Assembly (NCBI GenBank): GCA_022414725.1
Contig: CM039464.1
Span: 17,729,405 to 17,793,404, forward strand
Source: Microglena sp. YARC
Lineage: Eukaryota; Chlorophyta; Chlorophyceae; Chlamydomonadales; Chlamydomonadaceae
Length of the DNA stretch: 64,000 bases
Direction: 5' to 3'
This document shows, piece by piece, positions 10,831 to 63,639 of this stretch (within the stretch, counting starts at the first letter, position 1; each line of letters starts with the position of its first letter). The translations under genes were made by a program, and so were the position numbers. A model generated the notes under the pieces. That model had not been told where the DNA came from. It was given only the letters and a program-made list of their open reading frames with translations, and did no database searches.

Positions 10831-10835
10831 TGCTG

Positions 10836-17022: not shown

Positions 17023-17167
17023 TAGCCCTTAAATCTGGATACCGAGTGGAAAGCAAGTCAGACTCGGTATCTGACAACTCCTTGTAAAGACTCGCCAAAA
17101 GAAACATTTGCACGCGTCAACCGATTGTCACATTTTACAACATCCTTTAAAACAACCTTCAAATTGG

Positions 17168-18819: not shown

Positions 18820-18984
18820 AAACACAATCGACCATTCAAGAATATGCGGATCGACGGTAGTCGCCTAGAAAAAAAGCAGAGATGATGTGCATAAAAAAAA
18901 CTGAACCTAATCAAGCAAAACAAGCCGACCATACAAACACGACATACCACGGATAAAATCAAGGAGAACGCAAATCGAATCACG

Positions 18985-29080: not shown

Positions 29081-29084
29081 TTAC

Positions 29085-29818
29085 CGCCATGTCGATCTGA
29101 ACAATTGGCACCCCCTCCAGCTCCACCACCACTGTTCCTTGATCATCTTGGTAGCACTCCACGTCCACAGGAGTGCCCACGTCTTTATCAGTTTCTTGTC
29201 GGGTACTTTGGCTGCACAGGAGGCAGTACAGGAAGCTTTACAGGAGGCGGTGCAGGAGGCGGTACTGGTCTCGGCTGGGGGGGCTGGTAGGGACGAGATG
29301 GCGGGGCCATGGGCTGGACCCCATACACAGGACCTTGCTGGAAAGGTGGTCCTCGGGACGGGGGCTCGGGACGGTATGATGGAAGAGGGGGTTGGTAAAA
29401 GGCTTGTATGGGTCCTCGTCCAAAGCCCCCCCGCCCCATGTTTGGATACCCTACCCTCCCTTCGCCCCGGCTGACAAACGCATCCCTTCCTCCCCCGTAC
29501 CCACCATGTCCTCCCAAAGCACCACCCGGCCCACCCTGCATGTGCTGTTGCTGCTGCTGTCCCCCACGCATGTTGTGCTGCCCCCCCTGCTGCTGCTGCT
29601 GGTGATGCCACCCCCCGGGGAGCTCTGGCTTGGAAATACCTCCCTCTCTCACACCAAAGGAGAAGGACCTCCCTCTGCCCTGCCCCCCCTGCCCTCTCCC
29701 CGCCCCCGCCTCTGCCCTCTCCCCGCCCCCGGCCCCTCCCGCGGCCTCCCCAATCTCCTCCACTCTTGGAGATGAGCGCATCCAGGCTGAGGTTCAGGCC
29801 CGCAGGCTCAGTGCTCAT
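29085..29818 (-). CDS. RGG/Q-rich protein with UAP56-binding-like N-terminus (mRNA-export-adaptor type), partial
   Basis: The ATG at 29818 starts MSTEPAGLNLSLDALISK, close to the UAP56-binding motif of ALY/REF and UIF-type export adaptors (LDMSLDDII). RGG-like text follows (GRGRGRGRGEGRGGG). After a G-run, probably a one-base indel near 29700, the neighbouring frame continues with SFSFGVREGGISKPELPGG, Q/N/G-rich stretches and a Pro/Tyr-rich segment. A following exon (about 29211-29085, acceptor CCTCCTGTGCAG) reads GTPVDVECYQDDQGTVVVEL.. and ends at the donor GTAAGA. Such proteins couple splicing to mRNA export in the nucleus. No RRM is visible in this part. Further exons would lie toward lower coordinates. 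Family membership rests on the short N-terminal motif and composition. Confidence 0.5.
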
Positions 29819-33044: not shown

Positions 33045-36000
33045 GTTGTACTCAGCCACCTCCTTGGGCACTACGCACACTCACTTGCACTCAGCCACCT
33101 CCTTAGGCACTACGCACACTCACTTGTACTCAGCCACCTCCTTGGGCACTACGCACACTCACTTGTACTCAGCCACCTCCTTGGGCACTACGCACACTCA
33201 CTTGTACTCAGCTACCTCCTTGGGCACTTACGCACACTACTTGTACCCAGCCACCACTCCTTGGCACTACGCACACTCACTCTAGCACTCAGCCACCTCT
33301 TTGGGCACTACGCACACTCACTTGTACTCAGCCACATCCTTGGGCACTACGCACATTCACTTGTACTCAGCCACCTCCTTGGGCACTACGCACACTCACT
33401 TGTACTCAGCCACCTCCTTGGGCACTACGCACACTCACTTGCGCTCAGCCACCTCCTTGGGCACTACGCACACTCACTTGTACTCAGCCACCTCCTTGGG
33501 CACTACGCACACTCACTGTACTCAGCCACCTCTTGGGCACTACGCACACTCACTTGTACTCAGCCACCTCCTTGGGCACTACGCACACTCACTTGTACTC
33601 AGCCACCTCCTTGGGCACTACGCACACTCACTTGTACTCAGCCACCTCCTTGGGCACTACGCACACTCACTTGCACTCAGCCACCTCCTGGGCACTACGC
33701 ACACTCACTTGTACTCAGCCACCTCCTTGGGCACTACGCACACTCACTTGTACTCAGCCACCTCCTTGGGCACTACGCACACTCACTTGTACTCAGCCAC
33801 CTCCTTGGGCACTACGCACACTCACTTGTACTCAGCCACCTCCTTGGGCACTACGCACACTCACTTGTACTCAGCCACCTCCTTGGGCACTACGCACACT
33901 CACTTGCACTCAGCCACCTCCTTGGGCACTACGCACACTCACTTGTACTCAGCCACCTCCTTGGGCACTACGCACACTCACTTGTACTCAGCCACCTCCT
34001 TGGGCACTACGCACACTCACTTTACTCAGCCACCTCCTTGGGCACTACGCACACTCACTTGTACTCAGCCACCTCCTTGGGCACTACGCACACTCACTTG
34101 TACTCAGCCACCTCCTTGGGCACTACGCACACTCACTTGTACTCAGCCACCTCCTTGGGCACTACGCACACTCACTTGTACTCAGCCACCTCCTTGGGCA
34201 CTACGCACACTCACTTGTACTCAGCCACCTCCTTGGGCACTACGCACACTCACCTGTACTCAGCCACCTCCTTGGGCACTACGCACACTCACTTGTACTC
34301 AGCCACCTCCTTGGGCACTACGCACACTCACTTGTACTCAGCCACCTCCTTGGGCACTACGCACACTCACTTGTACTCAGCCACCTCCTTGGGCACTACG
34401 CACACTCACTTGTACTCAGCCACCTCCTGCACTACGCACACTCACTTGTACTCAGCCACCTCCTTGGCACTACGCACACTCACTTGTACTCAGCCACCTC
34501 CTTGGGCACTACGCACACTCACTTGTACTCAGCCACCTCCTTGGGCACTACGCACACTCACTTGTACTCAGCCACCTCCTTGGGCACTACGCACACTCAC
34601 TTGTACTCAGCCCACCTCCTTGGGCACTACGCACACTCACTTGTACTCAGCCACCTCCTTGCACTACGCACACTCACTTGTACTCAGCCACCTCCTTGGG
34701 CACTACGCACACTCACTTGTACTCAGCCACCTCCTTGGGCACTACGCACACTCACTTGTACTCAGCCACCTCCTTGGCACTACGCACACTCACTTGTACT
34801 CAGCCACCTCCTTGGGCACTACGCACACTCACTTGTACTCAGCCACCTCCTTGGGCACTACGCACACTCACTTGTACTCAGCCACCTCCTTGGCACTACG
34901 CACACTCACTTGTACTCAGCCACCTCCTTGGGCACTACGCACACTCACTTGTACTCAGCCACCTCCTTGGGCACTACGCACACTCACTTGTACTCAGCCA
35001 CCTCCTTGGGCACTACGCACACTCACTTGTACTCAGCCACCTCCTTGGGCACTACGCACACTCACTTGTACTCAGCCACCTCCTTGGGCACTACGCACAC
35101 TCACTTGTACTCAGCCACCTCCTTGGGCACTACGCACACTCACTTGCACTCAGCCACCTCCTTGGGCACTACGCACACTCACTTGTACTCAGCCACCTCC
35201 TTGGGCACTACGCACACTCACTTGTACTCAGCCACCTCCTTGCACTACGCACACTCACTTGTACTCAGCCACCTCCTTGGGCACTACGCACACTCACTTG
35301 TACTCAGCCACCTCCTTGGGCACTACGCACACTCACTTGTACTCAGCCACCTCCTTGGGCACTACGCACACTCACTTGTACTCAGCCACCTCCTTGGGCA
35401 CTACGCACACTCACTTGCACTCAGCCACCTCCTTGGGCACTACGCACACTCACTTGTACTCAGCCACCTCCTTGGGCACTACGCACACTCACTTGTACTC
35501 AGCCACCTCCTTGGGCACTACGCACACTCACGTACTCAGCCACCTCCTTGGGCACTACGCACACTCACTTGTACTCAGCCACCTCCTTGGGCACTACGCA
35601 CACTCACTTGTACTCAGCCACCTCCTTGGGCACTACGCACACTCACTTGTACTCAGCCACCTCCTTGGGCACTACGCACACTCACTTGTACTCAGCCACC
35701 TCCTTAAGCACTACGCACACTCACTTCACTCTCAGCCACCTCCTGGGCACTACGCACACTCACTTACTCAGCCACCTCCTTGGGCACTACGCACACTCAC
35801 TTGTACTCAGCCACCTCCTTGGGCACTACGCACACTCACTTGCACTCAGCCACCTCCTTGGGCACTACGCACACTCACTTGTACTCAGCCACCTCCTTGG
35901 GCACTACGCACACTCACTCACTCAGCCACTCCTTGGGCACTACGCACACTCACTTGTACTCAGCCACCTCCTTGGCACTACGCACACTCACTTGTACTCA

Positions 36001-39000
36001 GCCACCTCCTTGGGCACTACGCACACTCACTTGTACTCAGCCACCTCCTGGGCACTACGCACACTCACTTGTACTCAGCCACCTCCTTGGGCACTACGCA
36101 CACTCACTTGTACTCAGCCACCTCCTTGGGCACTACGCACACTCACTTGTACTCAGCCACCTCCTTGGGCACTACGCACACTCACTTGTACTCAGCCACC
36201 TCCTTGGGCACTACGCACACTCACTTGTACTCAGCCACCTCCTTGGGCACTACGCACACTCACTTGTACTCAGCCACCTCCTTGGGCACTACGCACACTC
36301 ACTTGTACTCAGCCACCTCCTTGGGCACTACGCACACTCACTTACTCAGCCACCTCCTTGGGCACTACGCACACTCACTTGTACTCAGCCACCTCCTTGG
36401 GCACTACGCACACTCACTTGTACTCAGCCACCTCCTTGGGCACTACGCACACTCACTTGTACCCAGCCACCTCCTTGGGCACTACGCACACTCACTTGTA
36501 CTCAGCCACCTCCTTAAGCACTACGCACACTCATCTGTACTCAGCCACCTCCTTGGGCACTACGCACACTCACTTGTACTCAGCCACCTCCTTGGGCACT
36601 ACGCACACTCACTTGTACTCAGCCACCTCCTTGGGCACTACGCACACTCACTTGTACTCAGCCACCTCCTGGGCACTACGCACACTCACTTGTACTCACC
36701 ACCTCCTTGGCCACTACGCACACTCACTTGTACTCAGCCACCTCCTTGGGCACTACGCACACTCACTTGTACTCAGCCACCTCCTTGGGCACTACGCACA
36801 CTCACTTGTACTCAGCCACCTCCTTGGGCACATACGCACACTCAACTTTACTCAGCCACCTCCTTTGGGCACTACGCACACTCACTTTACTCAGCCCACC
36901 TCCTTGGGCACTACGCACACTCACTTGTACTCAGCACCTCCTTGCACTACGCAACACTCACCTGTACTCAGCCACCTCCTTGGGCACTACGCACACTCAC
37001 TTGTACTCAGCCACCTCCTTGGGCACTACGCACACTCACTTGTACTCAGCCACCTCCTTGGCACTACGCACACTCACTTTCAGCCACCTTCCTTGGGCAC
37101 TACGCACACTCACTTGTACTCACCACCTCCTTGGGCACTCACGCACACTGTCTCAGTACTCCTGGGCACACGCACACTCACTTGTACTCAGCCACCTCCT
37201 TGGGCACTACGCACACTCACTTGTCATCACTTGTACTCAGCCACCTCCTTGGGCACTACGCACACTCACTTGTACTCAGCCACCTCCTTGGGCACTACGC
37301 ACACTCACTTGTACCCAGCCACCTCCTTGGGCACTACGCACACTTACTTGTACTCAGCCACCTCCTTGGGCACTACGCACACTCACTTGTACTCAGCCAC
37401 CTCCTTGGGCACTACGCACACTCACTTGTACTCAGCCACCTCCTTAGGGCACTACGCACACTCACTTGTACTCAGCACCTCCTTGGGACACTACGCACAC
37501 TCACTTGTACTCAGCCACCTCCTTGGGCACTACGCACACTCACTTGTCTACTCAGCCACCTCCTTGGGCACTACGCACACTCACTTGTACTCAGCCACCT
37601 CCTTGGCACTACGCACACTCACCTCACCACCTCCTTACGGTACTCAGCACTACACACTCCTCAGGTACTCAGCCACCTCCTTGGCACTACGCACACTCAC
37701 TTGTACTCAGCCACCTCCTTGGGCACTACGCACACTCACTGTAGTACAGCCACCTCCTTGGGCACTACGCACACTCACTTGTACTCAGCCACCTCCTTGG
37801 TACTACGGCTACAGCACTCACTCCTTGGCACTACGCACACTTTGTACTCAGCACCTCCTTGGGCTACGCACACTCACTTGTACTCAGCCACTCCTTGGGC
37901 ACTACGCACACTCACTTGTACTCAGCCACCTCCTTGGGCACTACGCACACTCACTTGTACTCACCACCTCCTTGGGCACTACGCACACTCACTTGTTCAG
38001 GCCACCTCCTTGGGCACTACACACTCACTTGTACTCAGCCACCTCCTTGGGCACTACGCACACTCACTTGTACTCAGCCACTCCTTGGGCACTACGCACA
38101 CTCACTTGTACTGCAGCCACCTCCTTGGGCACTACACACTCACTTGTACTCAGCCACCTCCTTGGGCACTACGCACACTCACTTGTACTCAGCCACCTCC
38201 TTGGGCACTACGCTCAGCCACGGCACTAACTCAGCCACCTCCTTGGGCACTACCACACTCACTTGTACTCAGCCACCTCCTTGGGCACTACGCACACTCA
38301 CTTGTACTCAGCCACCTCCTTGGGCACTACGCACACTCACTTGTACTCAGCCACCTCCTTAAGCACTACGCACACTCACTTGTACTCAGCCACCTCCTTG
38401 GGCACTACGCACACTCACTTGTACTCAGCCACCTCCTTGGGCACTACGCACACTCACTTGTACTCAGCCACCTCCTTGGGCACTACCACACTCACTTGCA
38501 GACTCAGCCACCTCCTTGGCACTACGCACACTCACTTGTACTCAGCCACCTCCTTGGGCACTACGCACACTCACTTGTACTCAGCCACCTCCTTGGGCAC
38601 TACGCACACTCACTTGTACTCAGCCACCTCCTTGGGCACTACGCACACTCACTTGTACTCAGCCACCTCCTTGGGCACTACGCACACTCACCTGTACTCA
38701 GCCACCTCCTTGGGCACTACGCACACTCACTTGTACTCAGCCACCTCCTTGGGCACTACGCACACTCACTTGTACTCAGCCACCTCCTTGGGCACTACGC
38801 ACACTCACTTGTACTCAGCCACCTCCTTGGGCACTACGCACACTCACTTGTACTCAGCCACCTCCTTGGGCACTACGCACACTCACTTGTACTCAGCCAC
38901 CTCCTTGGGCACTACGCACACTCACTTGTACTCAGCCACCTCCTTGGGCACTACGCACACTCACTTGTACTCAGCCACCTCCTTGGGCACTACGCACACT

Positions 39001-39749
39001 CACTTGTACTCAGCCACCTCCTTGGGCACTACGCACACTCACTTGTACTCAGCCACCTCCTTGGGCACTACGCACACTCACTTGTACTCAGCACCTCCTT
39101 GGGCACTACGCACACTCACTTGTACTCAGCCACCTCCTTGGGCACTACGCACACTCACTTGTACTCAGCCACCTCCTTGGGCACTACGCACACTCACTTG
39201 TACTCAGCCACCTCCTTGGGCACTACGCACACTCACTTGTACTCAGCCACCTCCTTGGGCACTACGCACACTCAGTACTCAGCCACCTCCTTTTGGGCAC
39301 TACGCACACTCACTTGTACTCAGCCACCTCCTTGGGCACTACGCACACTCACTTGTACTCAGCCACCTCCTTGGGCACTACGCACACTCACTTGTACTCA
39401 GCCACCTCCTTGGGCACTACGCTCACTAGCACTCAGCTCTTGGGCACTACGCACACTCACTTGTACTCAGCCACCTCCTTGGGCACTACGCACACTCACT
39501 CAGCCACCTCCTTGGGCACTACGCACACTCATTGTACTCAGCCACCTCCTTGGGCACTACGCACACTCACCTGTACTCAGCACCTCCTTGGGCACTACGC
39601 ACACTCACTTGTACTCAGCCACCTCCTTGGGCACTACGCACACTCACTAGCACCCAGCCACCTCCTTGGGCACTACACACACTCACTTGTAATCAGCCAC
39701 CTCCTTGGGCACTACGCACACTCACTTGTACCCAGCCACCTCCTTGGGC
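33045..39749 (-). repeat. 39-bp satellite of about 170 units made from the 3' edge of MED10 exon 5
   Basis: On the minus strand the unit is CCCAAGGAGGTGGCTGAGTA-CAA followed by GTGAGTGTGCGTAGTG, that is codons PKEVAEYK and then a consensus donor and intron start. The last 23 exon bases of MED10 exon 5 (39848-39870) are the same sequence. Units are highly uniform apart from 1-3 base indels and occasional donor changes (for example cttaagc at 35705, 36515 and 38360). Since 39 is divisible by 3 and the plus strand lacks stops, frames of up to 2,129 codons appear there; they are artefacts of the repeat. Confidence 0.92.
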
Positions 39750-39847
39750 TCGATTCCCCACCCACTCACCCCACCCACTCACTGCATCCTACCCACCCAA
39801 CCCACTCACCGCATCCTACCCCCCCCCCCCCCCCCCAAATAACGCAC

Positions 39848-48490
<8,643 letters not shown>

Positions 48491-48542
48491 CCTGTCAGTG
48501 GATTCAGAGCATGCCCTATTACGTGCACTGCCCACTAGCTGC

Positions 48543-48940
48543 TAGCTACTAGGTTCTGCCTCAGCTACCCTAGCTTTGGACCCTCTTGCCAGGGCCCTGC
48601 AGCGTTGAGATACGATAGAGGGGTGAGCAGAGAGTGCCACCCTTCAAGAAATTGTGAGTTGGGAAGGAGGGTGGAAAGGAGCGCAGTTAGGGAGCGACAG
48701 TAATCGGTCTTTACCAAAATACGTACGAACTAGCAGAACGAGACACGAAGGACCGACAACTCGACGGACAGAATGGAAGATTGCGCTATAAGGCGTTGCT
48801 TATAGAATAGGCGAGAGGCAGTCGAGTACTGTTCGAATCTCTGCGAGAGAGAATTGAGTCTGTAGGAGAGAGGCAGCGTGGAAGTAATGACAGATTTTCT
48901 GACGAAGTGGTCCTCACCATGTGGCTTGGCTTGGTTACCT

Positions 48941-48971
<31 letters not shown>

Positions 48972-49404
48972 ATGCCAGCTACCTTGTACCCGCAGTACCG
49001 CACGCTATGATTAGAACTCCGTCAACTCGGCCTTTCGACAAAATCCATTGCACAGTTCGTTTTGAAAGGCCTATACCTATCAACGCCATGCATCGACAGT
49101 TGTCATCCTGGACCTGTCAGGTTCAGCTCCAATGGATCTTTCGTAAACCAACCTTGGACGATGTAAACCCGTCGCACAGTTTTGTTCGCGGCATCATTTT
49201 CATGCATAATTTCTCTTGCACTCGGGGCTACCGAGCGCTGCCCGGCTCAGGAGTTTTGGTCGAAGGACCCGGTCGAAGTCGCTTGCTTCGCTGCGAGCAC
49301 AAGGTGAGAATTCGGAAAACCAGAATCCTTAAGAATGGTGCCAGGAGTGCATGCTAGAAGTTGCGTGCATTAGGTCGACGTCTGGCTGAAGTTTGAAGGT
49401 TTTC

Positions 49405-49438
<34 letters not shown>

Positions 49439-49970
49439 CCCCCCTATCCTAGCCCCCCCGCTTGCTGCGCTGCGCGCACCTGGTGAGAATTTGAAAAACC
49501 AGAATCCTTGAAAATGGTGCCAGAAGTGCATGCTGGAAGTCGCGCGCCTTAGGTCGATGCCCGGCTGAAGTTTGGAGGTTTCCCGTGGGTCCCCTGTGGA
49601 ATTTGGTTTAACCTAAGCCCCATGCCCACCCTTAAGGCCTTGTAAGTGACCTGCGGCCATCCATACAGCCATGCAAGTGACCCACCCCCACCCAGACAGC
49701 CATGCAAGTGATCCAACCCCACCCACACAGCCATGCAAGTGACCTTCCCACACCCATACAGCCATGCAAGTGACTCACCCCCACCCATACAGCCATGTAA
49801 GTGACCTGCGGCCACACACGCAGCCATGTAATTTCACAAACACAAATACAAAAGATAAACAAAGTGCCTCCCACATACTGCCCGCCCCCCGCCCCCGCCC
49901 CCACCCCACCCTCCCACACCCACCCACACTGCCGCACACGCACTAAACAAACTTGCACTACTTGTTTGTA
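48543..49970. other. Intergenic region with poly-C tracts, a direct repeat and a minisatellite
   Basis: C runs lie at 48943-48970 and 49409-49437. A block of about 120 bp at 49280-49405 (gtgagaattcggaaaaccag, aatccttaagaatggtgcca) recurs at 49459-49580. 49630-49840 holds units of cacccatacagccatgcaag tgacc, each with a donor-like gtaagtg or gcaagtg on the plus strand. The plus frame 49008-49290 has no recognisable domain. Confidence 0.6.
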
Positions 49971-49971
49971 G

Positions 49972-50027
49972 GATGGGAAAATCACGAGCAGCACCTGGAT
50001 TCCAAAAGGGCCACGTTCATCCAAAAA
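49972..50027 (+). CDS. Possible first coding exon of a PWP1-like WD-repeat protein
   Basis: An acceptor-like TTTGTAG precedes ATGGGAAAAATC-type sequence at 49973. The exon reads MGKITSSTWIPKGPRSSKK and ends at a GTGAGA donor (50028). The pattern (S)xxWIPKG at the very N-terminus resembles PWP1 family proteins (..SAISWVPKG..). No further exon could be joined in phase, so the assignment is weak. Confidence 0.3.
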
Positions 50028-50689
50028 GTGAGAATGGATGAAGAGTAATATGACTGTACACAGCAAACTCCAGTTTGGTTGGCAACTTGCTTGGCACACA
50101 TGCAAGCATGCATATACTTAAATTGTGTTGCTGTCGAGGGGATACTGTGTGGTGTGAGTGCAATGGCAGCTCAGTTGTAGATGCACATGCATACTAAAGA
50201 CCAGCCAGCTAATGTTAAGTATAACCTTTGTTTAATCTTTCACCATGTAGAAGGGACCTCGGTTGACGGGAACGCACCAGCCTCTACTAGTGAGCCCGCT
50301 AGTCCAGGGGAGCTGCCTAGAAGCTGCTGCTTGTAGCCGAAATCTTCCATGATGGAGCAGCCGGTGGCCTACGAAGTCTTGTTGCATCCCGTGGGCCCCC
50401 TAGCCATCCCCAGGACTCGCAGGTACCCAGCGGTGTAAGGGTACAACATCCGTGCGGCGGGCACAAACCCCCTACTCTAGAGACTTTCTTCAGCGAGGGC
50501 ACGCAGAATTTGCAGGTAAGGCATGCATATGATAGACTCATACCTTGGGAGATTTTCGATCACATAGGCTTGAGCGGGTGACACAAGCCGGTCTGTTGCT
50601 TATGTATGTGTTTCAATTTTGATAAATGGGAGACTTGATGGTCGATGACTCGTTTGCATGCACCTCCTCTAGGTAGTACAGTCCCTTAC

Positions 50690-50900
50690 CAATACCGTCC
50701 AACCACCCTCTTCTCCTCAGTACCGACCGTCACTCGGGCCGTTTCTATACGGGCTGGCCAAGATTGTTTACCTTGCTCGCCTAATGGTGATGACGGACAA
50801 AGAGCGGGGGTTCTACCTACCTGACGCAGCAAAGAGGGACTTGGCCTATGTGCACCACATCCTGAAAATGAACACCGGAGTCGACATGCATCGCCAGTAA
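50690..50900 (+). pseudogene. Possible retroelement polymerase fragment
   Basis: After a CTCAG acceptor-like site, or simply in an open frame, the plus strand reads YRPSLGPFLYGLAKIVYLAR and later GFYLPDAAKRDLAYVHHIL to a stop at 50898-50900. The fLrPLy... DLayvh..L layout recalls the thumb/RNase H connection of DIRS- or LTR-type elements. The rest of the element is not recognisable. Confidence 0.3.
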
Positions 50901-53130
50901 GAGAAGCACAAAAATAGGAAAGATAGCAAGTCTTCTGCCTTGACGAAGGCCCAGGCAACGACGACAGTCTGTCAGCACCACAGGTCTTCTTCACACTAGG
51001 TCGTGTACTTGGCAATAGCATGCTACATGAATACATGATGTTCATGCTGCTACCAAGAGGCACTCATTGGCAGGTTTGGGGGGGGGGGGGGGGGGGGGAA
51101 ATTTCATTTTATTTCATTAGTAGTGTTTGTGTGCTAGCTGGTATCATACATGTTTAGTGCATGCAAACACATGAGGCCATATCAAAAACAGAAGAAGAAA
51201 ATAACCTGCGTACTTGGTATTTTTTGTTCTTTTTTACACCACCCTACGACGTCGATGACACTTTTTGTAACAACAGATGCACCGTTCCTTTTTTTTGCTA
51301 CATGTACCAGCTTCTAGGCAGCTCCAACTGCCTGTCCTCACCACAGGCCAAGACCTTCTCATTATGGAGGAGTTTGTGTACCTAGGTTTAGTTCATTAGT
51401 GCTTTTTCTTTTTAGCCCCTCCTAGTTACAAGGTTGGGTAAGTCCCCTTCAGCCTATTTGGCTACCCCCCCGGACTGTAAAAAACAAGAATTGAAAAATG
51501 GAATACCCGCCCTTGAGCCGAACTTGAAGTTAGCTAGTATTCCAAAAGCTAACATGACGGGGCGGTTCCATGCACTTGAATTCTCCAGGCTAGAACCACT
51601 GGCCAGAGAATGGAGCTCGCTAGAACCTGCCATTCATAGCACACAAAAAGTGGACACATGAGGAGAGCCTGGAGCTGGTGGGCTGGAGCCCTCTGTCTGG
51701 AGCCCATTCCTATCCCATGCATGGGCCTATGCCCTGCATGGGGCTGTGGCCTGTGGGGAGCAGGCTCGGGATCCCAGTCTGGCTCCCGAGCACTCAAATC
51801 GCCAAACATCTAGCCCAAAACCTTCCCAAGACCATTAATTGCCCTTTCGAATCATTCGTGACCCTGGAGCGAAAGGATGTAGCTCGAGGATCGGGGCACA
51901 AGAGCCCCCCTAGGCCCTGGCGTCGGGCATTTGGCCCAGGCGCGCTGCGCAGAGAAAGTTGCAAGATCAGGCAGTCGGTGGGGCTGTTAAGGAAGCATAG
52001 GCGGTCAATTGCTGCGCAAAAGCATAGCCATTGGTATTCTATGCGCTGAGAAAGAATCATCGCGTTCGACCCTGAGGGGGGCTTGGCCCGGCCGGTCTGC
52101 TTGCATGGGGGGGGGGGTGACCACCACCCGGTGACCACCACCGGTGACCACCACCCACCACGGGCATCTGACCAACCACCGCAGTCGGGAATTGGGTGAG
52201 AAAGAATGAGAGAGCTCCGAGCCGAGGAGACGAGGAAGCAAGACGAGGTTGCAAGTTAGGACATCTGCGGTCTTACCTCGTCGCATCCTATGCCCGAAGC
52301 TCTCTAATTCCTGCAAGGTGGTGGTGTAAGGCGCGCAGGGCTTAGGCCTATGGCGGCACTTTTACGTAAGCCTTACGACGCTTTCGGCGAATTTCATCTT
52401 CCATACTGCATCATAGCAATAGTACTTGGGCTCAACTTTAATTGTGTCTACACAAAATCTCAATTTCTAAGGCCAGTCTCGGTGGTGGAGCAAGATCGGC
52501 ACTCCGGTCGGACCCCGGCTGGTGATCTATCCCGGTACCGCGGCGGGCGGCGTTCAAATTCAAAGTCATCGGACTAAGTTGCAACCTTTGTCTAGGTAGC
52601 CCCGAGGCATACTTGGGGGGTGCATAAGGTACACCTACATGTGGGCGGAGAGGTCTGACTAGGCCTCATGGGCACCAGATTACTCCCTACTAGGGCATGC
52701 CTATTATAGGGGTGCCTAGGCAGCAGGGCTAGGCACCCCTGCTAGGCAGTGACATGCATTTGCAAGAATGTGGCCCATGGTGCACACCTAGCAGCTCTAC
52801 CTTCTCTGGATGTGTCCTCCATGCATCCCCCAACATGCCACATGGGTACCCAAACATAGCTTGGAACTTGGTCCGCTGACTTTTATGCTCTAAGTTTTCA
52901 CCCTGTAGGTGTGTGTGGAATGTACATAGCCTATTTACATCAAATTTGAGGCAGGTGAATAGAAGGAGCACCTAGCTAAAGGACGGCCATGCACCGCACC
53001 ATTCAATTGCTTGCCTCAGGGTAAGCCATACCCAATGCGATGAATCCATCTTCACATGAGATATACATTAACATACACGGGCTCAAACATTGGGGACCCT
53101 AGGGGTTGATCGGAGGTAGTGGACTTGGCC
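50901..53130. other. Intergenic, dispersed repeats only
   Basis: Contains a G run at 51076-51098. At 51449-51485 lies a sequence (cctatttggctacccc..ggactgtaa) also found at 32738-32766. At 52110-52160 is a small ggtgaccaccacc repeat. No gene is supported. Confidence 0.5.
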
Positions 53131-53139
53131 GAATTCCAG

Positions 53140-53850
53140 CTGTTGCTAGGAACCCTAGAGTCGGATTATACTCTAGAGTCGGATTATAACCGATAACCGA
53201 CAGATTACCGATCCAACCGTCATAATCGTGTCCAAACTCGTCCGACGTGACTCGCCTGTCGATCTATTTTGACCTGGAATCCTGTTTGACCGACATTGTT
53301 GTAAACTGCCACCACCCTGCCTGTCTGACGCGCGCATTGGAAACAATATTTAGCGCCTAATCGATAGCAGTCTTCTACCTATCTTCATAATACACTGCGA
53401 AGTGACAGACAGACTGCAGCCAGAGACCAACTAGCTACTTATCAAGCAACCTTGCTGGGCAAAATCCCCCGCTGCTGAATAAACTCTTTAATTCTGCACT
53501 TACTCGCATTGCGCTTCGCATTTGCCACCAGGGCTGCTGCAAAGAACCGACGCGCTTGCTCGAATTAGCTCTGCTCGCGTTGCAACCATGACTGGGGCTA
53601 TGGGCGCGTCATTCATCGTCTTCCTGCTATGCCTTCAAGCAGCCATTGGCGTCGATATCCTATCACCTCAAAGCAAGATTAAAGGTACTTCAACGGCACC
53701 GGTCAATCCTACCTCACGACTTCTGGTCTCTAGATATCAACCAATCAACCTTCAGGCTGCTCTCCGACGGCGGGCGGACTAACGATGGTCAGACTTCGGG
53801 CACTTCTAGGCGCAGGCATGGGTTATCATGGGTAGATTTAGGGTAGACTT
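53140..53850 (+). mobile_element. Possible LTR-retrotransposon 5' end (LTR, leader and gag start)
   Basis: A segment with ctgctgaataaactctttaa (promoter/polyadenylation-like) is followed by gcatttgccaccagggctgc and an ATG at 53588 opening MTGAMGASFIVFLL. The frame closes after about 65 codons and no pol region follows. Suggestive only. Confidence 0.25.
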
Positions 53851-53999
53851 CCACGAGTTCATAGAGTGGGCATGACTGTCTGACCTCAGTATCAGCACTA
53901 CTGCACCTACCACTGAGGCTATGCCATGCCCCCACATCATGGTAGCTAGCTCTTCCCAGAGAAAGTGAACTCTCTGACAGCCTAAATGTCTCGCCCCAT

Positions 54000-55990
54000 G
54001 TACCCAGCTCTCACCTGCCCTCACACCCACACATGCACCACCACCATAGCCCAGACCACCACCACCATCACCTATACCGGGCCATATTAAACCTCCACCA
54101 CCTTCACCACCACCACCACCACCACCACACAAACCTATAAAATATTTAAATATCACACCCTCATATCCACACACACACCACCACCACCACCACCACCGCT
54201 ATCACCACCACCACCGCCACCTTGTTTCCTGCACCCATGCCCAGACATCCACACGTGTGAAGATGAGAATTCCCAACCACCTAAACATTTCCTACCACCT
54301 AAACCCAAACCATAAAGCACCTCCATCCTCATCTCCACCACCACCACCTTAATCCACACCATAACACACCTCCACCACCACCACCAGAACCTAGAAATAA
54401 CACACCCTCACATCCACACACACAACCACCACCACCTATACCCAGGCTATATCACACCATCACCACCATCACCACCATCACCACCACCACCACCCCAAAC
54501 TATAAAATATCGCACCCTCATATCCGCACACACCACCACCACCACCACTACCTATACCCAGGCCATACCAACCCTTCACCACCATCACCACCACCACCAC
54601 CCCAAACCTATGAAATATTGCACCCTCATATCCACACACACCACCAACACCAACACCTATACCCAGGCCACATCACACCTTCACCACCATCACCACTATC
54701 GCCGCCCAAACCTATAAAATATTACACCCTCATATCCACAAGCAGGAACAACACCCCCCCCCCACCTTGTTTCCTGCACCCATGTCCAGATATCCCCATG
54801 TGTGAGGATGAGGATTCCCTAAGACCTTAACCTTTCCTACCACCTAAACCCTTGCCATAACGCACCTCCATCCCTACCACCTAAACCCTGGCCATAACGC
54901 ACCTCCACCCCCACCACCTAAACCTACACCATAACACACCTCCATCACCACCACCACCACTAACACCAGAACCTAGAAAAATCACACCCTCAAATCCACA
55001 CAAACCAGCACCATCGCATAACGCATATCGCACCACCACATAACGCACCTCCTCCTCCACCACCACCACCACCACCTAAACCCACACCATAACACACCTC
55101 CATCGGCACCACCACCACTGGAACCTAGAAAAATCACACCCTCATATCCACACAAACCAGCACCATCGCATAACGCATATCGCACCACCACATAACGCAC
55201 CTCCTCCTCCACCACCACCACCACCACCTAAACCCACACCATAACACACCACCACCACCACCACTGGAACCTAGAAAAATCACACCCTCAAATGCACACA
55301 AACTACCACCATTGCATAACACATAACGCACCACCACATAACGCACCTCCTCCTCCACCACCACCACCACCACCACCTAAACCCACACCATAACACACCA
55401 CCATCACCACCACAACCACCACTGGAACCTAGAAAAATCACACGCTCATATGCACACAAACTACCACCATTGCATAACACATAACGCACCACCACGCAAC
55501 GCACCACCACCACGCAACGCACCACCACCACCACCACCGCCATCACTGGAACATAGACAAATCGCACCCTCATATCCACACAAACCGCAACCATCTCATA
55601 ATGCATAACGCACCGCCACATAACGCATCTCCTCCACCACCAGCATGTCCAGATATCCCCATGTTTAAGGATGCTGTGGTGCAAACCACCACCAACGCCA
55701 CATAAACCACCACCAATGCCACACAAACCACCATCATTGCATAACACATAGGCCACCACCGCCATCACAACCACCACCACCACCACCAGATATTCCCATG
55801 TGTGAGATTGCTGCGGTGCAAACCACCACCACCGCCACACAAACCACCACCATCGCATAACTCATAGGCCAGCGCCACCATCACCAACACCAGATATCCC
55901 CATGTGTGAGGATACTGTGGTGCCAACGACCACCACCACCGCCACACAAACCACCACCACTGCATAACGCACCACCACCACCACCATGTC
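54000..55990 (+). repeat. CCACCA-rich intron with copies of the methyltransferase exon 1 acceptor edge
   Basis: Within ccaccaccacc and cataacgcacctcc repeats lie five copies of (t)g(t/c)ccagatatccccatgtgt gaggatg, at about 54240, 54779, 55645, 55788 and 55892. These equal the acceptor and first codons of the exon starting at 55994. They become closer to the true sequence toward the exon, and all are upstream of it. Larger tandem units (about 100 and 145 bp) at 54960-55470 also repeat. Confidence 0.82.
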
Positions 55991-55993
55991 CAG

Positions 55994-56133
55994 ATATTCC
56001 CATGTGTGAGGATGCGGATTTCCTACCAGCTGTCAAGACTGAGTGCGAAGCTCAGATGGAGGTCATCGGCCCCCCTTTGGAGTTGTGTCGAGTACCTGTA
56101 CCTGCTGGGTACAGCCTCAAGGTACGGTACGCG

Positions 56134-56224
<91 letters not shown>

Positions 56225-56427
56225 TCCCTCTCTTTCCCTCCCCCCCCCTTGGAGTTGTGTCGAGTACCTGCACCTGCTGGGTACAGCCTCAAGGTACGGT
56301 GCATGCATACTTTGGTAAACTGTGTTACGCAATTTAATTGCGGTCCAGCCACACAGTAATAAATAAAAAAAGCATTAGGAATAAGTCACCAAGTCAACCC
56401 TATATTAGAGAAAGTACAGTAAGCATA

Positions 56428-56477
<50 letters not shown>

Positions 56478-59400
56478 CTCTACCTCTACCTCTACCTCCC
56501 TCTACCTCTCCCTCTCCCTCTCTTTCCCTCCCCCCCCCGACACGCATACAGTCACACACACTCTCACCCACAAACATGTACTTTTCTGTTGCAGGCCAAG
56601 TACCCTGATAGCTTGTGGCAAATTTCATACGCCAACATCCCCAAAGCAGCTCTTTGGGAGTCTATCAAGTCAGACCAGTCTTGGGTGGTGGTAAGCAATC
56701 CCCAAATTCCATATTTTCACAGTGCTTGGTTGTGTTGTTGCTGTCATCATTGTTGTTGTTGTTGTCCTTGTGCTTGCTGTTTATTGGTGGTGGAGGTGGT
56801 GGTGGTGTCCTTGTAGTTGTTTTTGTTGTTGTCCTTGGCCTTGCTGTTTCTTGGTGGTGAAGGTGGTGCTGGTGGTGGTGTCCTTGTTGTTGTTGATGCT
56901 ATTGTTGTTGTCCTTGGCCTTGCTGTTTCTTGGTGGTGAAGGTGGTGCTGGTGGTGGTGTCCTTGTTGTTATTGTTGTTGTCCTTGGCCTTGCTGTTTCT
57001 TGGTGGTGGTGGAGGTGGTGGTGTCGTTGTTGTTGTTTTTGTCGTCCTTGCTGTTGTTGGTGGTGGTGGAGGTGTTGTTGTTTTCCTTGTTATTGTTGTT
57101 GCTTATGGTTGTCCTTGTTGGTGTTCTTGTTGTTGGTGTTGCCCTTGTTGTTGGTGTTGGTGTCCTTGTTGTTAGTGTTGTTGTCCTTGCTGTTGGTGTT
57201 GTTGGTTTTGTCCTTGTTGGTGTTGTTCTTATTCTTGTTCTTGTTGGTTTTGTCCTTGTTGGTGTTGTTGTCTTTGTTGGTGTTGTCCTTGTTGTTGTTG
57301 TTGTTGCTGTCCTTGATGGTGTTGTCTTTGTTGGTGTTGGTGTTGTCCTTGTTGTTGTTGTTGTTGCTGTCCTTGATGGTGTTGTCTTTGTTGGTGTTGG
57401 TGTTGTCCTTGTTGTTGTTGTTGTTGTCTTTGTTGTTGTTGTCCTTGTTGTTTTTGTCCTAAAACCTATACTCTAACCTGTGTTTGTTTGTGTGTGTGCA
57501 TGTGAGTGAGTATGTGCAAGAGTGTGTGTGAGGGGGAGAGAATGGGGGTGGGGTGGGGTATGGAAGTGGGGTGTGGGGGGGAGTGGACTTAATTATATCT
57601 CCGGCTTCCTCTGATGGAATCTGTCGTTTGACAATGTAGATCAACGGGGACAAGCTGGACCTGCTAAGGGAAGGAGGTACATAATTAAGTTGTTGTTATT
57701 GTTGTTGTCCTAATTCCTAAACCATAAACTTGGGGGGGAGGGGGGTACGCGTCTGTGTGAGTGGGGGGTGGGGTGGGGGGAAATTAATTATAGCCCCGGC
57801 GTCCTCTGATGGAATCTGTCGTTTGACTATGTAGATGTAGAACGGGGACAAGCTTGATCTGCCAAGGAAAGGAGGTATATAATTGAGTTGTTGTTGCCGT
57901 CCTTATTGTTGTTGTTGTTGTAAACCCTAGACCCTAACCTATGGCCGGGAGGGGGGAGGGGGGGTATGCGTCTGTGTCTGTGCATGTGTGTGAGTGTGTG
58001 TAAGTGTGTGTGTCTGTGGGAGAGGGTGGGGGTGGGTATGGAAGCGTGTGTGTGGGGGAGTGGACTTAATTATATCACCGGCTTCCTCTGATGGAATCTA
58101 TCGTTTGACTATGTAGATCAACGGTGACAAGCTGGACCTGCCAAGGAAAGGAGGAAGTGGGGCAGCAAGTGACTTCCTCAAAATGATTCCCCCCACGTGA
58201 GTCAACTGGTCTGCATATGAGTTTGTCTGCGTGAGTGTGTGCCAGTGATTGTCAACCTGGCTGGGGTGAGGTGCACGTGCCCAGCATAAATTTACCAATT
58301 GAGAGGTTTGCGGATAGCAGTGAAGAAACGGCAAGTGATTTCCTGAAGATGATACCCCCCACATGAGTTTGTCTGTATGGGTGTGTGCCAGTGTTTGTCA
58401 ACCTGGCTGGGGTGAGGTGCACATGCCCAACTTAAATTTACCAATTGAGAGGTTTGCGGATAGCAGTGAAGAAACAGCAATCGAATTCGTGAAGGTGATA
58501 CCCCCCACATGACTCAACAGGTCTGCATATGAGTTTGCCTGTATGGGTGTGTGTCTGGTTTTGTAAACCTAGCTGGGGTGCGGTGCACATGCACAATGTA
58601 AATTTACCAATTGAGAGGTTTGCGGATAGCAGTAAAGAAATGGCAAGCAACTTCCCGAAGATGATACCCCCCACATGAGTTAACAGGAAGTGGTGATGCC
58701 GATAATGGTGATGCTGATGGTGGTGACGATAATTACGATGCTGCTGCTGCTGGTGATAGTGATGATGATTATGATGCTGCTGATGCAGCTGATGGGGTAG
58801 GTTTTTAAGTGATCGCATTGATGATGACGGCGATGATAGTGATGTTCATGATTTCCATAAGATGATACCCCCCAAGTGAGTCAACAGGAAGTGGTAATGC
58901 CGATAATGGTGATGCTGATGGTGGTGATGATGATTACGATGCTGCTGATGCTCATGATTACGATGCTGCTGATGCAGCTGATGGGGTAGGTTTTAAAGTG
59001 ATCGCAATGATGATGACGACGGCGATAATAATGATGTGTATGATTTCCATAAGATGATACCCCCAAGTGAGTCAACAGGAAGTGGTGATGCCGATAATGG
59101 TGCTGCTGACGGTGGTGATGATGATTACGATGCTGCTGATGCTCATGATTACGATGCTGCTGATGCAGCTGATGGGGTTGGTATTTAAGTGATCGCAATG
59201 ATGCTGACGACGGCGATAATAATGATGTTTATGATTTCCATAAGATGATACCCCCAAGTGAGTCAACAGGAAGTGGTGATGCCGATAATGGTGCTGTTGA
59301 TGGTGGTGATGATGATTACGATGCTGCTGATGCTCATGATTACGATGCTGCTGATGCAGCTGATGGGGTTGGTATTTAAGTGATCGCAATGATGCTGACC

Positions 59401-62400
59401 ACGGCGATAATAATGATGTTTATGATTTCCTTAAGATGATACCCCCCCACGTGAGTAAACAGTAAGTAGTGATTCCGATGATGGTGATCATGATTACGAT
59501 GCTGATGCTATTTACGATGATGGTGGTGATGGTGATGATGGTGTCGACGGTGACGATGATAGTGATGTTTATGATGATGATTGCGATGGTGATGACGGTG
59601 ACGATGATAGTGATGTTTATGATGATGATTACGATGGTGATGACGGTGGCGATGATAGTGATGTTTATGATGATGATATATTATAGAGGAAGTACCATTG
59701 CTCTCTGTCGCTCATCAGGATAGGCAAGACTTGTGTGCTATGTGATGTTCTCTTGTAGCTTGAGGATGCTGGCTAGGTGCACCCACACCCTCATACCCCT
59801 ATACCACCACCCTCACCCCCATACCCCACACCCACACCCCCATACCCTCACACCCATACCCTCACACCCCACCCCCACCCCCACCCCACCCCACGCTACC
59901 CTTGTCGGTCCACAGGGTAGACAAGACCAAGATCCGTACTATCCTTGATGGTAAGTGGAGGATGGTTCATATGATTGTTCCTAATTGTTTTAGAAGTGGC
60001 CTGCAATATGATTTGGTGCCCTATGCCCTTACCATCAAATGCTTTTGCATCTTTTTGCTCCTTTCAGCTGTTTCCAAACAGAGTTTTGCTTTTCGTGAGG
60101 TTATAACAAATTAAATAAAATGTCGTTTTGTTATGGTCATACAAATGTCGTTTTGGTATGGTTATATAGACATTCAATTCCCTATTTCCTCGAATTTTTC
60201 ATTCATGTGTGCTTGATTGACAAACACTTTTTCATCTTTTTGCCCATTATGCTATTTCCACTCCAAGGTTTTACTGTGCATGTAGTGTAACGCTTTTAAT
60301 GTCGTTTTATTACATTCATAAAGATCTTTTAATCTCCTATTCTGCTGATGGCAACCAAAAGGTTTTGCCGTTCATGTGGTTCAATTAAAAAAAGGTAATG
60401 ATAACGCCTGGTGGGGCGTGGTGTTAAGGGAGCCCGTCGTACGCGGGTGGGGAGCGGCCTCCTACCTCAACTGGACAAGCTACCATCAGGGTTGATAACG
60501 ACCTGCAACGCCAAGAGCGACTGAAGGGAGAGTCGACCCCCCCGACTCTTCATCCTCAAGCGATCTGGTCTACCACTAGACCATTGTATATCCCTGAAAG
60601 GGGCTACGTGGTTTGATCAAATTTAATAATTAAATCGTTTTATTACATTCATCAAGACATTTCAATCCCCTGTTCCTTCAAATTACATTGTATGTGCTTT
60701 ATTGACAAATGCTTTTGCATAGTTTTGATCCTTCTGCTGTTTGCAATCAGAGTTTTGCTTTTCGTGAGGTTTTAACAAATTAAATAAAATGTCGATTTGT
60801 TATGGTCATAAAATGTCGTTTTGGTGTGGTTATATAGACATCCAATCCCCTATTCCCTTGAAATTTTCATTCATATGTGCTTGATTGACAAATGCTTTTG
60901 CATGTTTTTGATCCATATTTCAGCTGTTTGCTATCGAAGGATTTTGCTGTGCATGTGCTTTTAACGCTAAAAAGAATGTCGTTTCACTACATTAATAAAG
61001 ACCGTGTAAATCTTCTGTTCTGCTGATGGCAGCCAAAGGGTTTTGCTGTGAATGTGGTTTAAACGTTTTTAAAGTCGTTTTATTACATTCATAAAAACCG
61101 TTTAATAACATTCATAAAGACCTTTTAATTGCATTTGTATGTGCTTTATTGACAAATGCTTTTGTATATTGTTGATCCATCAGCTGTTTGCAATCGAAGG
61201 GTTTTGCTGTGCATGTGCTTTTAACTTAACAAGTTCGATGCAGCGTCGCCTGCGACGCTAAAAATTGGCAGAGAGTGAATGCGAGGGAGCGAACAGGTGG
61301 CGATGGCAAGCAAGTTAGTCCAGGCCGTTGGCTGCCGTGTCGGCTTCATCGGACGGATGGATGGACGAACGGACACAAACCCATGGTAACACTGGGGGCT
61401 CCCGCCCCCCAGAAGGGGGGACTCCGTCAAAAACAAAATGACGTTTCACTGCATTCATGAAGACGGTTTAAATCCCCTATTCTGCTGATGGGAGCCAAAG
61501 GGTTTTGCTGTGCCTGAGTTGGTGGGACTTATATTTTGTATTTTTGTCTGCATTCCTTACTCTGTCTCCCTTTCTGTCTATTTGTGTCTGCATGCCTTGC
61601 TCCCTTTCTGTCTATTTTGTCTGCATTCCTTGTTCCCTTTCTGCCTATTTTTGTCTGCATGCCTTATTCCCTTCCTGTCTATTTTGGTCTGCATGCCTTG
61701 CTCCCTATCTGGCTATTTTGGTCTGCATGCCTTGCTCTGACTCCCTATCTGCTTATTTCTCAATCTCTCTTTCTGTCTGTTTCGCTAAAAGTCCGTCTCT
61801 CTTTTTCCTGTTTGTCTGTATACCTGTTTCTTGATCACCCCACGTCCTTAGAAGTGTCATTGTGACATGTCTTGGAAGATTTGTTTCTTTTATTTCTCTA
61901 TCTGCCTATCTATATCTGTCTGTATCATGCATGCATGTAGGTAGGTAGGTCTTGCCTGCATCCTGCTCATCTGAATTTATGTGGATCGTACCTGTCTGCA
62001 GTCTATCATGCCTATCTGCAACCTGCTTATCTAAATTTATGTATTTTTGTGGGTGGGTGGATGGGTGGATGAATGGATGACTAATGTGGCGACCCTTCAA
62101 CCCCAAAGTGGCAAGCCTGACCTCAACCCTGTTTTAACTTGTGTCCTTATATTAAAGGGAGCTGGTATGTGTGGATTGGAAGCTAAGGTCTGTTTATTTA
62201 AATTTAGGTATATTAGTGCATAGATGGATGGATGGATGGCTAAAGTGGTAGACCTGACCTCGACCTGCATTGTCTGTCCTCAATCTTCATTATTTTCCCT
62301 TGAAGAGGGAGTTGGTGTGTGTGGGGTGGAAGCTAAGGTCTGTTTATTTAAATTCAGGTCTATTAGTGCATAGATGGATGGATGGATGGCTAAAGTGGTA

Positions 62401-63639
62401 GACCTGACCTCGACCTGCATTGTCTGTCCTCAATCTTCATTATTTTCCCTTGAAGAGGGAGTGGTGTGTGTGGGGGTGGAAGCTAAGGTCTGTTTATTTA
62501 AATTCAGGTCTATTAGTGCATAGATGGATGGATGGATGGCTAAAGTGGTAGACCTGACCTCGACCTGCATTGTCTGTCCTCAATCTTCATTATTTTCCCT
62601 TGAAGAGGGAGTTGGTGTGTGTGGGGTGGAAGCTAAGGTCTGTTTATTTAAATTCAGGTCTATTAGTGCATAGATGGATGGATGGATGGCTAAAGTGGTA
62701 GACCTGACCTCGACCTGCATTGTCTGTCCTCAATCTTCATTATTTTTCCTTGAAGAGGGAGCTGGCGTGTGTGGGGTGGGAGCTGGCTTGTGGGGTGGGC
62801 GCTGGCGTGTGTGGGGTGGGCGCTGGCGTGTGAGGGGTGGGCGCTGGCGTGTGTGGGGTGGGCGCTGGCGTGTATGGGGTGGGCGCTGGCGTGTGTGGGG
62901 TGGGAGCTGGCGTGTGTGGGGTGGGCGCTGGCGTGTGTGGGGTGGGCGCTGGGGTCTGCTCATCTAAATTTAGGTTTATACATGGATAGATGGATGGATG
63001 GCTAAAGTGGCAAACCTGATCTCAACCTGCATTGCATGTCCTCCATCTCCATTCTATGCCCTTGAAGAGGGAGCTGGTATTTCTTTTAGGTTTATACATG
63101 GATAGATGGATGGATGGCTAAAGTGGTCAACCTGACCTCGTCCTGCATTGTATGTCCTCAATCTTCATCCTATGTCCTTGCAGAGGGAGCTTTTTTTTAT
63201 GTGTCGGTTGGGAGCTGAGGTCTGCTTATCTAAATTTATGTATATTAGTGCATAGATGGATGGATGGATAGATGGAGTGGCAAACCTGACCTCAACCTGC
63301 ATTGTATGTCCTCAATCTTCATTCTTTCCCCTTGCAGAGGGAGCTGGTGTGTGTGGGTTGGGAGCTGAGGTCTGCTCATCTAAATTGAGGTGTATTAGTG
63401 GATACATAGATAGATGGATGGATGGCTAGAGCGGTAAATCTGACCTCAACCTGCACGCCTCAATCTCCATTCTATGTCCTTGCAGAGGGAGCAGGTGTGT
63501 GTGGGTTGGGAGCTGAGGTCATGGCCACCTGGGCGCATCGCCCCACTGTCTTGTCCTACGCCCCCCACGACACGCATGCCAGCCAGGTGCAGGTGTGTGC
63601 GGAGAGGGGAGTGCCCTCCATCCTCTTCAGCATGGCAAG
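55994..63639 (+). CDS. DUF248 (Methyltransf_29) S-adenosylmethionine methyltransferase, QUA2/TSD2-like, partial gene
   Basis: Five plus-strand exons: 55994-56121 (YIPMCEDADF..LELCRVPVPAGYSLK), 56595-56690 (AKYPDSLWQISYANIPKAAL..SWVV), 58117-58196 (INGDKLDLPRKGG..DFLKMIPP), 59916-59950 (VDKTKIRTILD), 63486-63639 (EGAGVCGLGAEVMATW..). Donors are GTACGG, GTAAGC, GTGAGT, GTAAGT, GTGGGT; acceptors end in AG. Phases 0, 0, 2, 1 join without a break. The text follows the plant family block by block: YIPCLDN, CLVPLPKGYK, WP.SRD..W.ANVPH, QNWV...GD, IRT.LD.G.GVAS.GAYLL (here the SAM-binding DEGAG), then MSFAPKDEHEAQVQFALERG (here LSYAPHDTHASQVQVCAERG). Plant members are Golgi methyltransferases needed for pectin and cell adhesion. 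The FPGGGT block is diverged. Both ends of the gene are missing from the window. Confidence 0.78.
56122..56310 (+). repeat. (CT)n tract followed by a copy of the exon 1 donor edge
   Basis: After exon 1 comes (CT)n (56136-56222). A near-exact duplicate of the last about 50 exon bases plus donor follows at 56241-56304 (ttggagttgtgtcgagtacc.. cctcaag|GTACGGTGC), with a single-base change (gta to gca). A second (CT)n/poly-C tract follows at 56431-56540. Confidence 0.88.
56725..57465 (+). repeat. (TTG)n-rich repeat, intron 2 of the methyltransferase gene
   Basis: Units of ttgttgttgtccttg and ggtggtggtgtccttg, with a 57-bp duplication (57290-57400). Long leucine/valine frames arise from the composition and are not genes. 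Confidence 0.8.
57595..57890 (+). repeat. Two upstream copies of the exon 3 acceptor edge
   Basis: 57600-57681 and 57800-57880 repeat cctctgatggaatctgtcgt ttgac(a/t)atgtag|atcaacggggac and end in gga(g)|gta(c/t)at. The copy at 58080-58155 continues into the full exon. Copy 2 has an insertion (atgtag duplicated) that would break the frame. Confidence 0.88.
58326..59465 (+). repeat. Seven downstream copies of the exon 3 donor edge
   Basis: Copies of gatttcct.aagatgatacc ccccca(c/a)(g/a)tgagt(c/t) lie at about 58340, 58490, 58645, 58850, 59045, 59235 and 59425. The true exon end reads gacttcctcaaaatgattcc ccccac|GTGAGT. Several copies have lost the donor GT (cacATGAGT, cacATGACT). Copies 4-7 sit in units of about 190 bp, filled with gatgatgctgatg repeats. 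Confidence 0.88.
59466..59900. repeat. GATGAT-rich and CCCACACC-rich intron sequence
   Basis: A 60-bp unit (gatgacggtgacgatgatag tgatgtttatgatgatgatt) is repeated at 59530-59690. A C-rich tract (59780-59895) runs into the exon 4 acceptor. Confidence 0.75.
60387..60590 (-). mobile_element. tRNA-derived SINE, copy 2
   Basis: On the minus strand the A-box-like tggtctagtggtaga (60583-60569) and a B-box-like ggggtcgactctc precede a body. The tail is ..gggctcccttaacaccacgc cccaccaggcgttatcattac ending in T7, shared with 32420-32464. Confidence 0.7.
61241..61436 (-). mobile_element. Dispersed repeat, copy 2
   Basis: The reverse complement follows 32815-33042 block by block: gacggagtccccccttctgg, ggggcgggagcccccagtgt, a GTCC/ATCC tract, cagccaacggcctgg, ttagcgtcgcagg. 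Next to its end, agcgtcgcctgcgacgct is a short palindrome. Confidence 0.75.
61540..61740. repeat. About 60-bp tandem repeat, tctgcatgccttgctccctttctgtctatttt
   Basis: About six degenerate units of 33-60 bp with ttgtctgcatgccttgctcc and ctttctgtctatttt. Confidence 0.75.
62080..63480 (+). repeat. Eight copies of the exon 5 acceptor edge in units of about 150-185 bp
   Basis: Each unit has gatggatggatggctaaagt, acctgacctc(g/a)acctgcat and tgtcctcaatcttcatt, then a pseudo-acceptor and exon start: ccttgaag|agggagttggtg tgtgtgggg. The true exon 5 (63486) reads ccttgcag|agggagcaggtg tgtgtgggt. Most copies have GAAG or TAAAG in place of GCAG. Units at about 63176 and 63329 have a proper GCAG. At 62762-62955 one copy has expanded internally into about nine units of gggtgggcgctggcgtgtgt. 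Confidence 0.9.

Follow-up and report, generated by a model that had tools for sequence, protein, structure and literature searches.

Tandem copies of exon edges and splice sites beside exons of a green alga suggest intron growth by local duplication across junctions

Repeated exonic sequence that includes splice sites is not new to the study of introns. Zhuo reportedly proposed in 2007 that human introns derive from tandem arrays, and Gao and Lynch are said to have connected internal gene duplication with intron creation in 2009; both accounts concern intron origin. Related events are found in the consulted portions of several published reports. In potato, a tandem duplication across an intron-exon boundary was described (PMC4974935). 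Human genes in segmental duplications carry internal tandem repeats at exon-intron boundaries (PMC2812944). In Chlamydomonas and Volvox, the density of tandem repeats is highest in introns and greater near intron-exon junctions (PMC3887541). In Drosophila, novel introns arise via the tandem duplication of proto-splice sites (PMC2891723). The initial annotation of the locus presented here stated that no described system has its layout, which is too strong a statement, as PMC4974935, PMC2812944, and PMC3887541 describe related cases in the portions consulted.

The window, that is, the whole 64,000-nucleotide stretch of DNA that was analyzed (C3:17729405-17793404), comes from the Microglena sp. 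YARC assembly of 568 Mb in 2390 contigs; among ten contigs that were sized, six measured 19-195 Mb and four <0.3 Mb. In the right half of the window, MED10 is encoded on the minus strand and a PMT-type methyltransferase (Methyltransf_29) on the plus strand. The two genes are arranged head to head, ~7 kb apart (46500-53500), and the region from 50 to 53.5 kb is practically without repeats. Eight exons were placed by homology, via the Pfam match of exons joined at the proposed junctions. The joined MED10 exons matched Med10 (E 1.9e-20, profile 41-118 of 119) and the joined methyltransferase exons matched Methyltransf_29 (E 1.9e-21, profile 35-170 of 506), and both matches were unbroken across the junctions. 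At the outer limits, the starts of MED10 exon 3 and of methyltransferase exon 1 and the donor of an added exon 0 lie outside the profile match, and their placement is based on frame and splice signals. The left part of the window (1-20000) contains virus-like or mobile genes, possibly from an inserted large virus, and a collection search returned eight distant cytosine-methylase loci on viral contigs. Exactly 1000 N in a row at 21072-22071 represent a scaffold gap or a masked stretch. The positions of all features are given in Table 1.

Introns of both genes contain direct local repeats that carry exon and intron sequence from around a junction. Gapped BLAST with queries of 40 nt on each side of a junction found crossing copies at 7/17 junctions: ten at the start of MED10 exon 4, three at the start of MED10 exon 5, and 4, 1, 2, 6, and 7 at methyltransferase exon 1 start, exon 1 end, exon 3 start, exon 3 end, and exon 5 start, respectively. 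These 33 copies were unchanged in number at E<=1e-4, and reversed queries found copies at 0/17 junctions in the window. Ungapped 30-mers by themselves detected 7/16 junctions, and with 90-nt arms the counts at the seven junctions became 8, 3, 5, 1, 2, 4, and 7. The addition of a 39-bp array derived from the end of MED10 exon 5 brought the window to 8/17 crossed junctions. All 33 BLAST copies were on the intron side. In other words, copies of an exon start with its acceptor lie upstream of the exon, and copies of an exon end with its donor lie downstream. Two of the junction arrays have units of ~150 and ~191 bp.

The initial annotation had listed ten such cases. Its counts for MED10 exon 4 start (10), MED10 exon 5 start (3), methyltransferase exon 1 end (1), and exon 3 start (2) were reproduced exactly; those for methyltransferase exon 1 start (5), exon 3 end (7), and exon 5 start (8) agreed to within one copy; and the ~170 copies it saw at the end of MED10 exon 5 correspond to 174 units of 39 bp. 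Eight of the ten cases consist of junction-crossing copies, but two were not verified as derived from an exon. No homology marks the proposed MED10 exon 2 (46380-46511) as an exon, and the array at 29085, when read by eye, shares the donor and the intron side but hardly any exon sequence. An ORF upstream of the latter array (29188-29793) had no Pfam match. Some other arrays, such as the one at 44235-45654, showed no link to a junction.

The 39-bp unit consists of 25-26 nt from the end of MED10 exon 5 followed by 13-14 nt beginning with gtgagt. By eye, a unit appears as an exon piece and then a 14-nt GT...AG segment that resembles a miniature intron. The unit is exact in 98/174 cases and its GT is intact in 166/174; the exon end recurs in the array as an exact 25-mer 104 times, in 99 cases with gtgagt directly after it. 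The 40-nt BLAST test missed this array, since the genuine donor reads gtgcgt and that of the array gtgagt. The stretch beyond MED10 exon 5 was counted as an intron by assumption, and no further exon was found there.

Table 1. Features of the window, with positions counted from its first nucleotide.
Feature	Position	Strand	Basis or remark
Endosialidase-chaperone (S74) ORF	2862-5915		Pfam
ORF with PPPSPVDMS-type repeats	6463-7611		Sub-threshold pherophorin (DUF3707) match, a hint of green-algal origin
C5 cytosine methylase	10836-12068		Pfam
DUF2177	12551-12964		Pfam
ORF	12924-13589		93 % identical metagenome protein
Helix-turn-helix ORF	14000-14422		Precedes DDE_3 piece
DDE_3 transposase piece	14440-14862		Pfam
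52-bp array repeating donor and intron start	28731..29087	-	TRF; adjoins candidate exon ending ~29086
174-unit array, 39 bp per unit	33046..39749	-	TRF and unit count
MED10 exon 5	39848..39942	-	Pfam Med10 match of joined exons
MED10 exon 5 start and acceptor, three copies	40114..41057	-	BLAST; first exon base ~40114, 40559, 41057
MED10 exon 4	43338..43410	-	Pfam Med10 match of joined exons
MED10 exon 4 start and acceptor, ten copies, unit ~48 bp	43411..43905	-	TRF, BLAST
MED10 exon 3	45679..45762	-	Pfam and frame/splice signals; crossing copies at neither edge
Methyltransferase exon 0, probable first coding exon	53588..53684	+	Signal-peptide-like by eye, phase fits; outside Pfam profile; donor without crossing copies
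Methyltransferase exon 1 start and acceptor, four to five copies	54780..55914	+	BLAST
Methyltransferase exon 1	55994..56121	+	Methyltransf_29 match of joined exons
Methyltransferase exon 1 end and donor, one copy	56254..56311	+	BLAST
Methyltransferase exon 2	56595..56690	+	Methyltransf_29 match; without crossing copies
Methyltransferase exon 3 start and acceptor, two copies	57600..57873	+	BLAST
Methyltransferase exon 3	58117..58196	+	Methyltransf_29 match of joined exons
Methyltransferase exon 3 end, six copies	58475..59463	+	Five with GT near junction; later copies spaced ~191 bp
Methyltransferase exon 4	59916..59950	+	Methyltransf_29 match; without crossing copies
Methyltransferase exon 5 start and acceptor, seven copies	62278..63373	+	BLAST
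Methyltransferase exon 5	63486..63639	+	Methyltransf_29 match of joined exons

The same pattern was found outside the window. The methyltransferase gene runs on into the next ~15 kb of the contig, where five further junctions were placed by similarity to a plant enzyme together with splice signals. Copies crossed 4/5 of these junctions (3, 2, 3, and 5 copies), all on the intron side. With 90-nt arms, 11/22 junctions of MED10 and the methyltransferase were crossed, the 39-bp array being left out of the count. An inner piece of a methyltransferase exon also recurs ~1.4 kb upstream of that exon (stretch L009, ~1370 and 2769).

Beyond the window genes, kinesin was the one family tested at the sequence level. 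A kinesin-motor search gave 128 matches, of which 14 long ones were excluded, being judged intronless by their span and open frames. Among the 114 taken, 42 had enough flank, and the removal of 4 that were secondary copies of a better match left 38 exons on five large contigs (C1-C5). Each match supplied three 30-mers (start, middle, and end), which were searched for in the flanking DNA at a threshold of 24 of 30 identities. Exon starts had copies upstream in 20/38 and downstream in 0/38, and exon ends had copies downstream in 17/38 and upstream in 0/38. Exon middles had copies upstream in 2 and downstream in 1 of the 38, 3 in all. The sign test was done per exon and not per copy, since copies in one array are not independent, and it gave 2e-6 for 20 vs 0 and 2e-5 for 17 vs 0; two of the exons (C1:190745351 and C1:190771084) appear to stem from the recent duplication of a single gene.

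Kinesin splice sites were picked by their signals close to the edges of the match; 2 acceptors and 4 donors had no good site and stayed undefined. Copies crossed 38/70 predicted junctions (21/36 acceptors and 17/34 donors) and numbered 113, with 63/63 acceptor copies upstream, 50/50 donor copies downstream, and none opposite; reversed queries gave 2/70. Compared with the functional junction, copies were more similar on the exon side than on the intron side, both at kinesin loci (identity 0.90 vs 0.85, n=113) and in the window (0.87 vs 0.77, n=32), as would follow if constraint acted on the exon reference alone. Partial profile matches were also compared with the polarity rule. For kinesin, 8 were consistent, 3 ambiguous, and 1 inconsistent, and in this single inconsistent case the two members were each copied from a third. 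For HSP70, with 75 matches used, 2 were consistent, 0 inconsistent, and 1 ambiguous. Among 27 myosin matches read by eye, one partial match (C4:9716449-9716556) was located on the downstream side of its exon end, in agreement with the prediction. The distance to the nearest copy at kinesin junctions (loci L025-L054) had a median of 188 bp, with 21/38 within 130-215 bp; these spacings cluster near nucleosome size. Frame keeping was considered and rejected, as 15, 10, and 13 nearest shifts had lengths with remainders of 0, 1, and 2, and multiples of three were not clearly in excess.

How do the copies arise? That about half of the examined junctions are flanked by copies of their own edges suggests, on the basis of sequence, intron growth through local duplications across junctions, with the copies being passed over in splicing. 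Very probably, tandem duplication of local segments of ~40-500 bp extends the introns. Where a duplicated segment straddles a junction, the copy attached to the exon body would stay functional, and the remaining copies would bring the exon edge and its splice site into the intron as decoys, from which further rounds of duplication would make arrays. Splicing would then pick the exon-body copy, probably as only the acceptor and donor of that copy bracket a real exon (exon definition). The use of a decoy would be harmful, and duplications that cross a junction would be near neutral. The intron-side polarity follows from this geometry, because a junction-spanning tandem duplication with an intact exon body must place the extra copy in the intron. 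Thus, the consistent direction pointed out in the initial annotation held for 33/33 and 113/113 copies, but it is not independent evidence. Its proposal that introns grow by duplication across junctions is sustained in that the copies are local, polar, and present in other genes, but junctions are not preferred and much of the intronic array DNA crosses no junction.

The lack of preference bears on a model in which a junction-directed process (R-loops, paused polymerase, replication stress, or nucleosome positioning at exon edges) favours duplication at exon borders. In agreement with such a process, repetition at kinesin loci lies at 0.37-0.58 between 60 nt inside and 500 bp outside the match edge and drops to 0.30 at 800 bp, compared with a mean of 0.16 (range 0.01-0.71) in random genome stretches (n=12). 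The spacing of kinesin copies described above also fits it, as does the greater abundance of tandem repeats close to intron ends of two green algae, in the consulted portion of PMC3887541. However, long spacing is expected at junctions because longer segments cross them more often, and the introns at kinesin loci have many units of 150-180 bp too. Junctions are also no more repeated than the adjoining intron. A crossing copy was present at 8/17 window junctions vs 244/300 random intron positions (31/150 intergenic and 1/150 coding positions), and at 38/70 kinesin junctions vs 84/133 intron positions and 41/144 positions of the random genome, so that the kinesin junction rate is slightly under the intron rate and about twice that of the random genome. 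In other words, a junction preference, which was expected from the original finding, was not seen in the window or at kinesin loci when junctions were compared with random intron positions. Repetition in the window rises outward, from 1/16 at 40 nt inside the exon to 7/16 at the junction and 10-13/16 at 45-300 nt outside. An exon edge was repeated in 30/44 cases when the flank 60-150 bp out was repeated and in 1/21 when it was not. Eight stretches taken as introns had 53-95 % of their positions repeated, as in intronic minisatellites, with methyltransferase intron 1 at merely 24 % once low-complexity positions were taken out; eight 1-kb blocks between MED10 and the methyltransferase were 0-42 % repeated, with practically nothing at 50-54 kb. 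The arrays belong to introns and the neighbourhood of exons and run across junctions; they are not focused on junctions. A junction-directed process is an unlikely explanation.

A role of the copied splice sites in splicing regulation, or in alternative or stepwise splicing, is less likely still. It would explain why the acceptor AG is nearly always kept, within 8 nt of the expected place in 26/26 window copies and in 60/63 kinesin copies, and why the AG columns reach 0.99-1.00 vs 0.81-0.85 for other intron columns. However, the fair yardstick is the constrained exon columns, whose mean is 0.89-0.92 with many single ones at 0.93-0.98, which leaves a small AG excess; selection on decoy acceptors was rejected on this comparison. 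The donor GT is not specially kept (40/50 kinesin copies). Among the 33 window copies, GT is missing from one donor copy, and splicing at any of the remaining 32 would cause a frameshift or run into a stop. The insertion of dispersed sequence (introners, other transposons, or gene conversion from elsewhere) is highly improbable; introners are known to create introns. The copies derive from the exon next to them, and their polarity, which has no exception in the local flanks searched, argues against it. An artefact of long-read assembly is equally improbable for the pattern as a whole. In the 39-bp array, many of the differences between units are losses of a single base, often in runs, such as uncorrected long reads show, so that the exact copy number of this array is uncertain. 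Copies elsewhere, however, are mostly 5-25 % divergent and stand in differing local contexts, and the pattern recurs with one polarity on five chromosome-sized contigs.

Local tandem duplication remains the preferred reading. The decoys are neither purged nor clearly protected: the acceptor AG is conserved about as well as the best exon columns and the donor GT less so. The spliceosome must therefore tell the exon-body copy, the presumed functional one, from many good sites, and exon definition would be the natural candidate for this choice. Special targeting of junctions would not be required, as random duplication in short ancestral introns yields a similar share of crossed junctions. In a simulation of random tandem duplications with no junction preference, whose free parameters were set after the fact, starting introns of 200-300 bp gave a mean of 5.2-6.0/16 repeated junctions (range 2-11) when crossing events were kept; starting introns of 100 bp gave ~8/16 and those of 500 bp ~3/16, and the observed value is 7/16. 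When the survival of crossing events was halved, 100-300 bp starts gave 3.2-5.3/16. Thus, crossing duplications are probably close to neutral if the ancestral introns were short. The simulation under-predicts repeated junctions from introns of >=500 bp, and with starts of 200-300 bp its values for repetition 12-20 nt inside exons are too low (0.15-0.30 vs 0.38-0.50 observed). The fall in kinesin repetition with distance, from ~0.5 at 100-500 bp to the value at 800 bp, is also not an obvious outcome of a uniform process. The random-duplication model is sufficient but not proven.

These arrays bear on the old questions of how introns lengthen and how the spliceosome selects one among many good sites. 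Because an array retains the edge of its source exon, growth is open to the counting, ordering, and dating of its events. With many near-identical decoys next to real sites, exon definition could be tested directly against the use of the nearest site, and gene finders are warned that exon-like fragments in such genomes may be copies. A broader idea, which we regard as possible but somewhat doubtful, is that junction-straddling tandem duplication is a main engine of intron growth across the lineage and is tolerated since strict exon definition makes arrays of intact decoys harmless. If this were true, the genome would amount to a saturation experiment, performed by nature, on how splice sites are chosen.

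How does the locus compare with the described systems, as far as the consulted portions of the reports go? Searches of openly licensed PMC papers turned up no title or abstract on exon-edge arrays of such a scale. In Drosophila, splice sites are likewise supplied by local duplication, but there exon-internal duplications create introns, whereas here arrays extend them (PMC2891723). The Chlamydomonas and Volvox repeats have units of 1-50 bp only, compared with the median spacing of 188 bp at kinesin junctions, and the consulted portion of that report does not mention copies of exon edges, which are what is copied here (PMC3887541). In the human paralogues, boundary repeats change intron structure as they do here, but the primate set comprises 27 intron modifications, most with an alternative transcript, whereas the present pattern involves about half of the sampled junctions in ordinary genes (PMC2812944). 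The potato duplication crosses the boundary and carries the acceptor and exon start along, as here; it was one event with one extra copy that gave a new intron and added exon sequence, unlike the present case, in which up to 174 copies lie beside one exon and the conserved protein is unchanged (PMC4974935). As far as searches of the open PMC literature show, what is new is the scale: about half of the sampled junctions, many copies, and one polarity rule.
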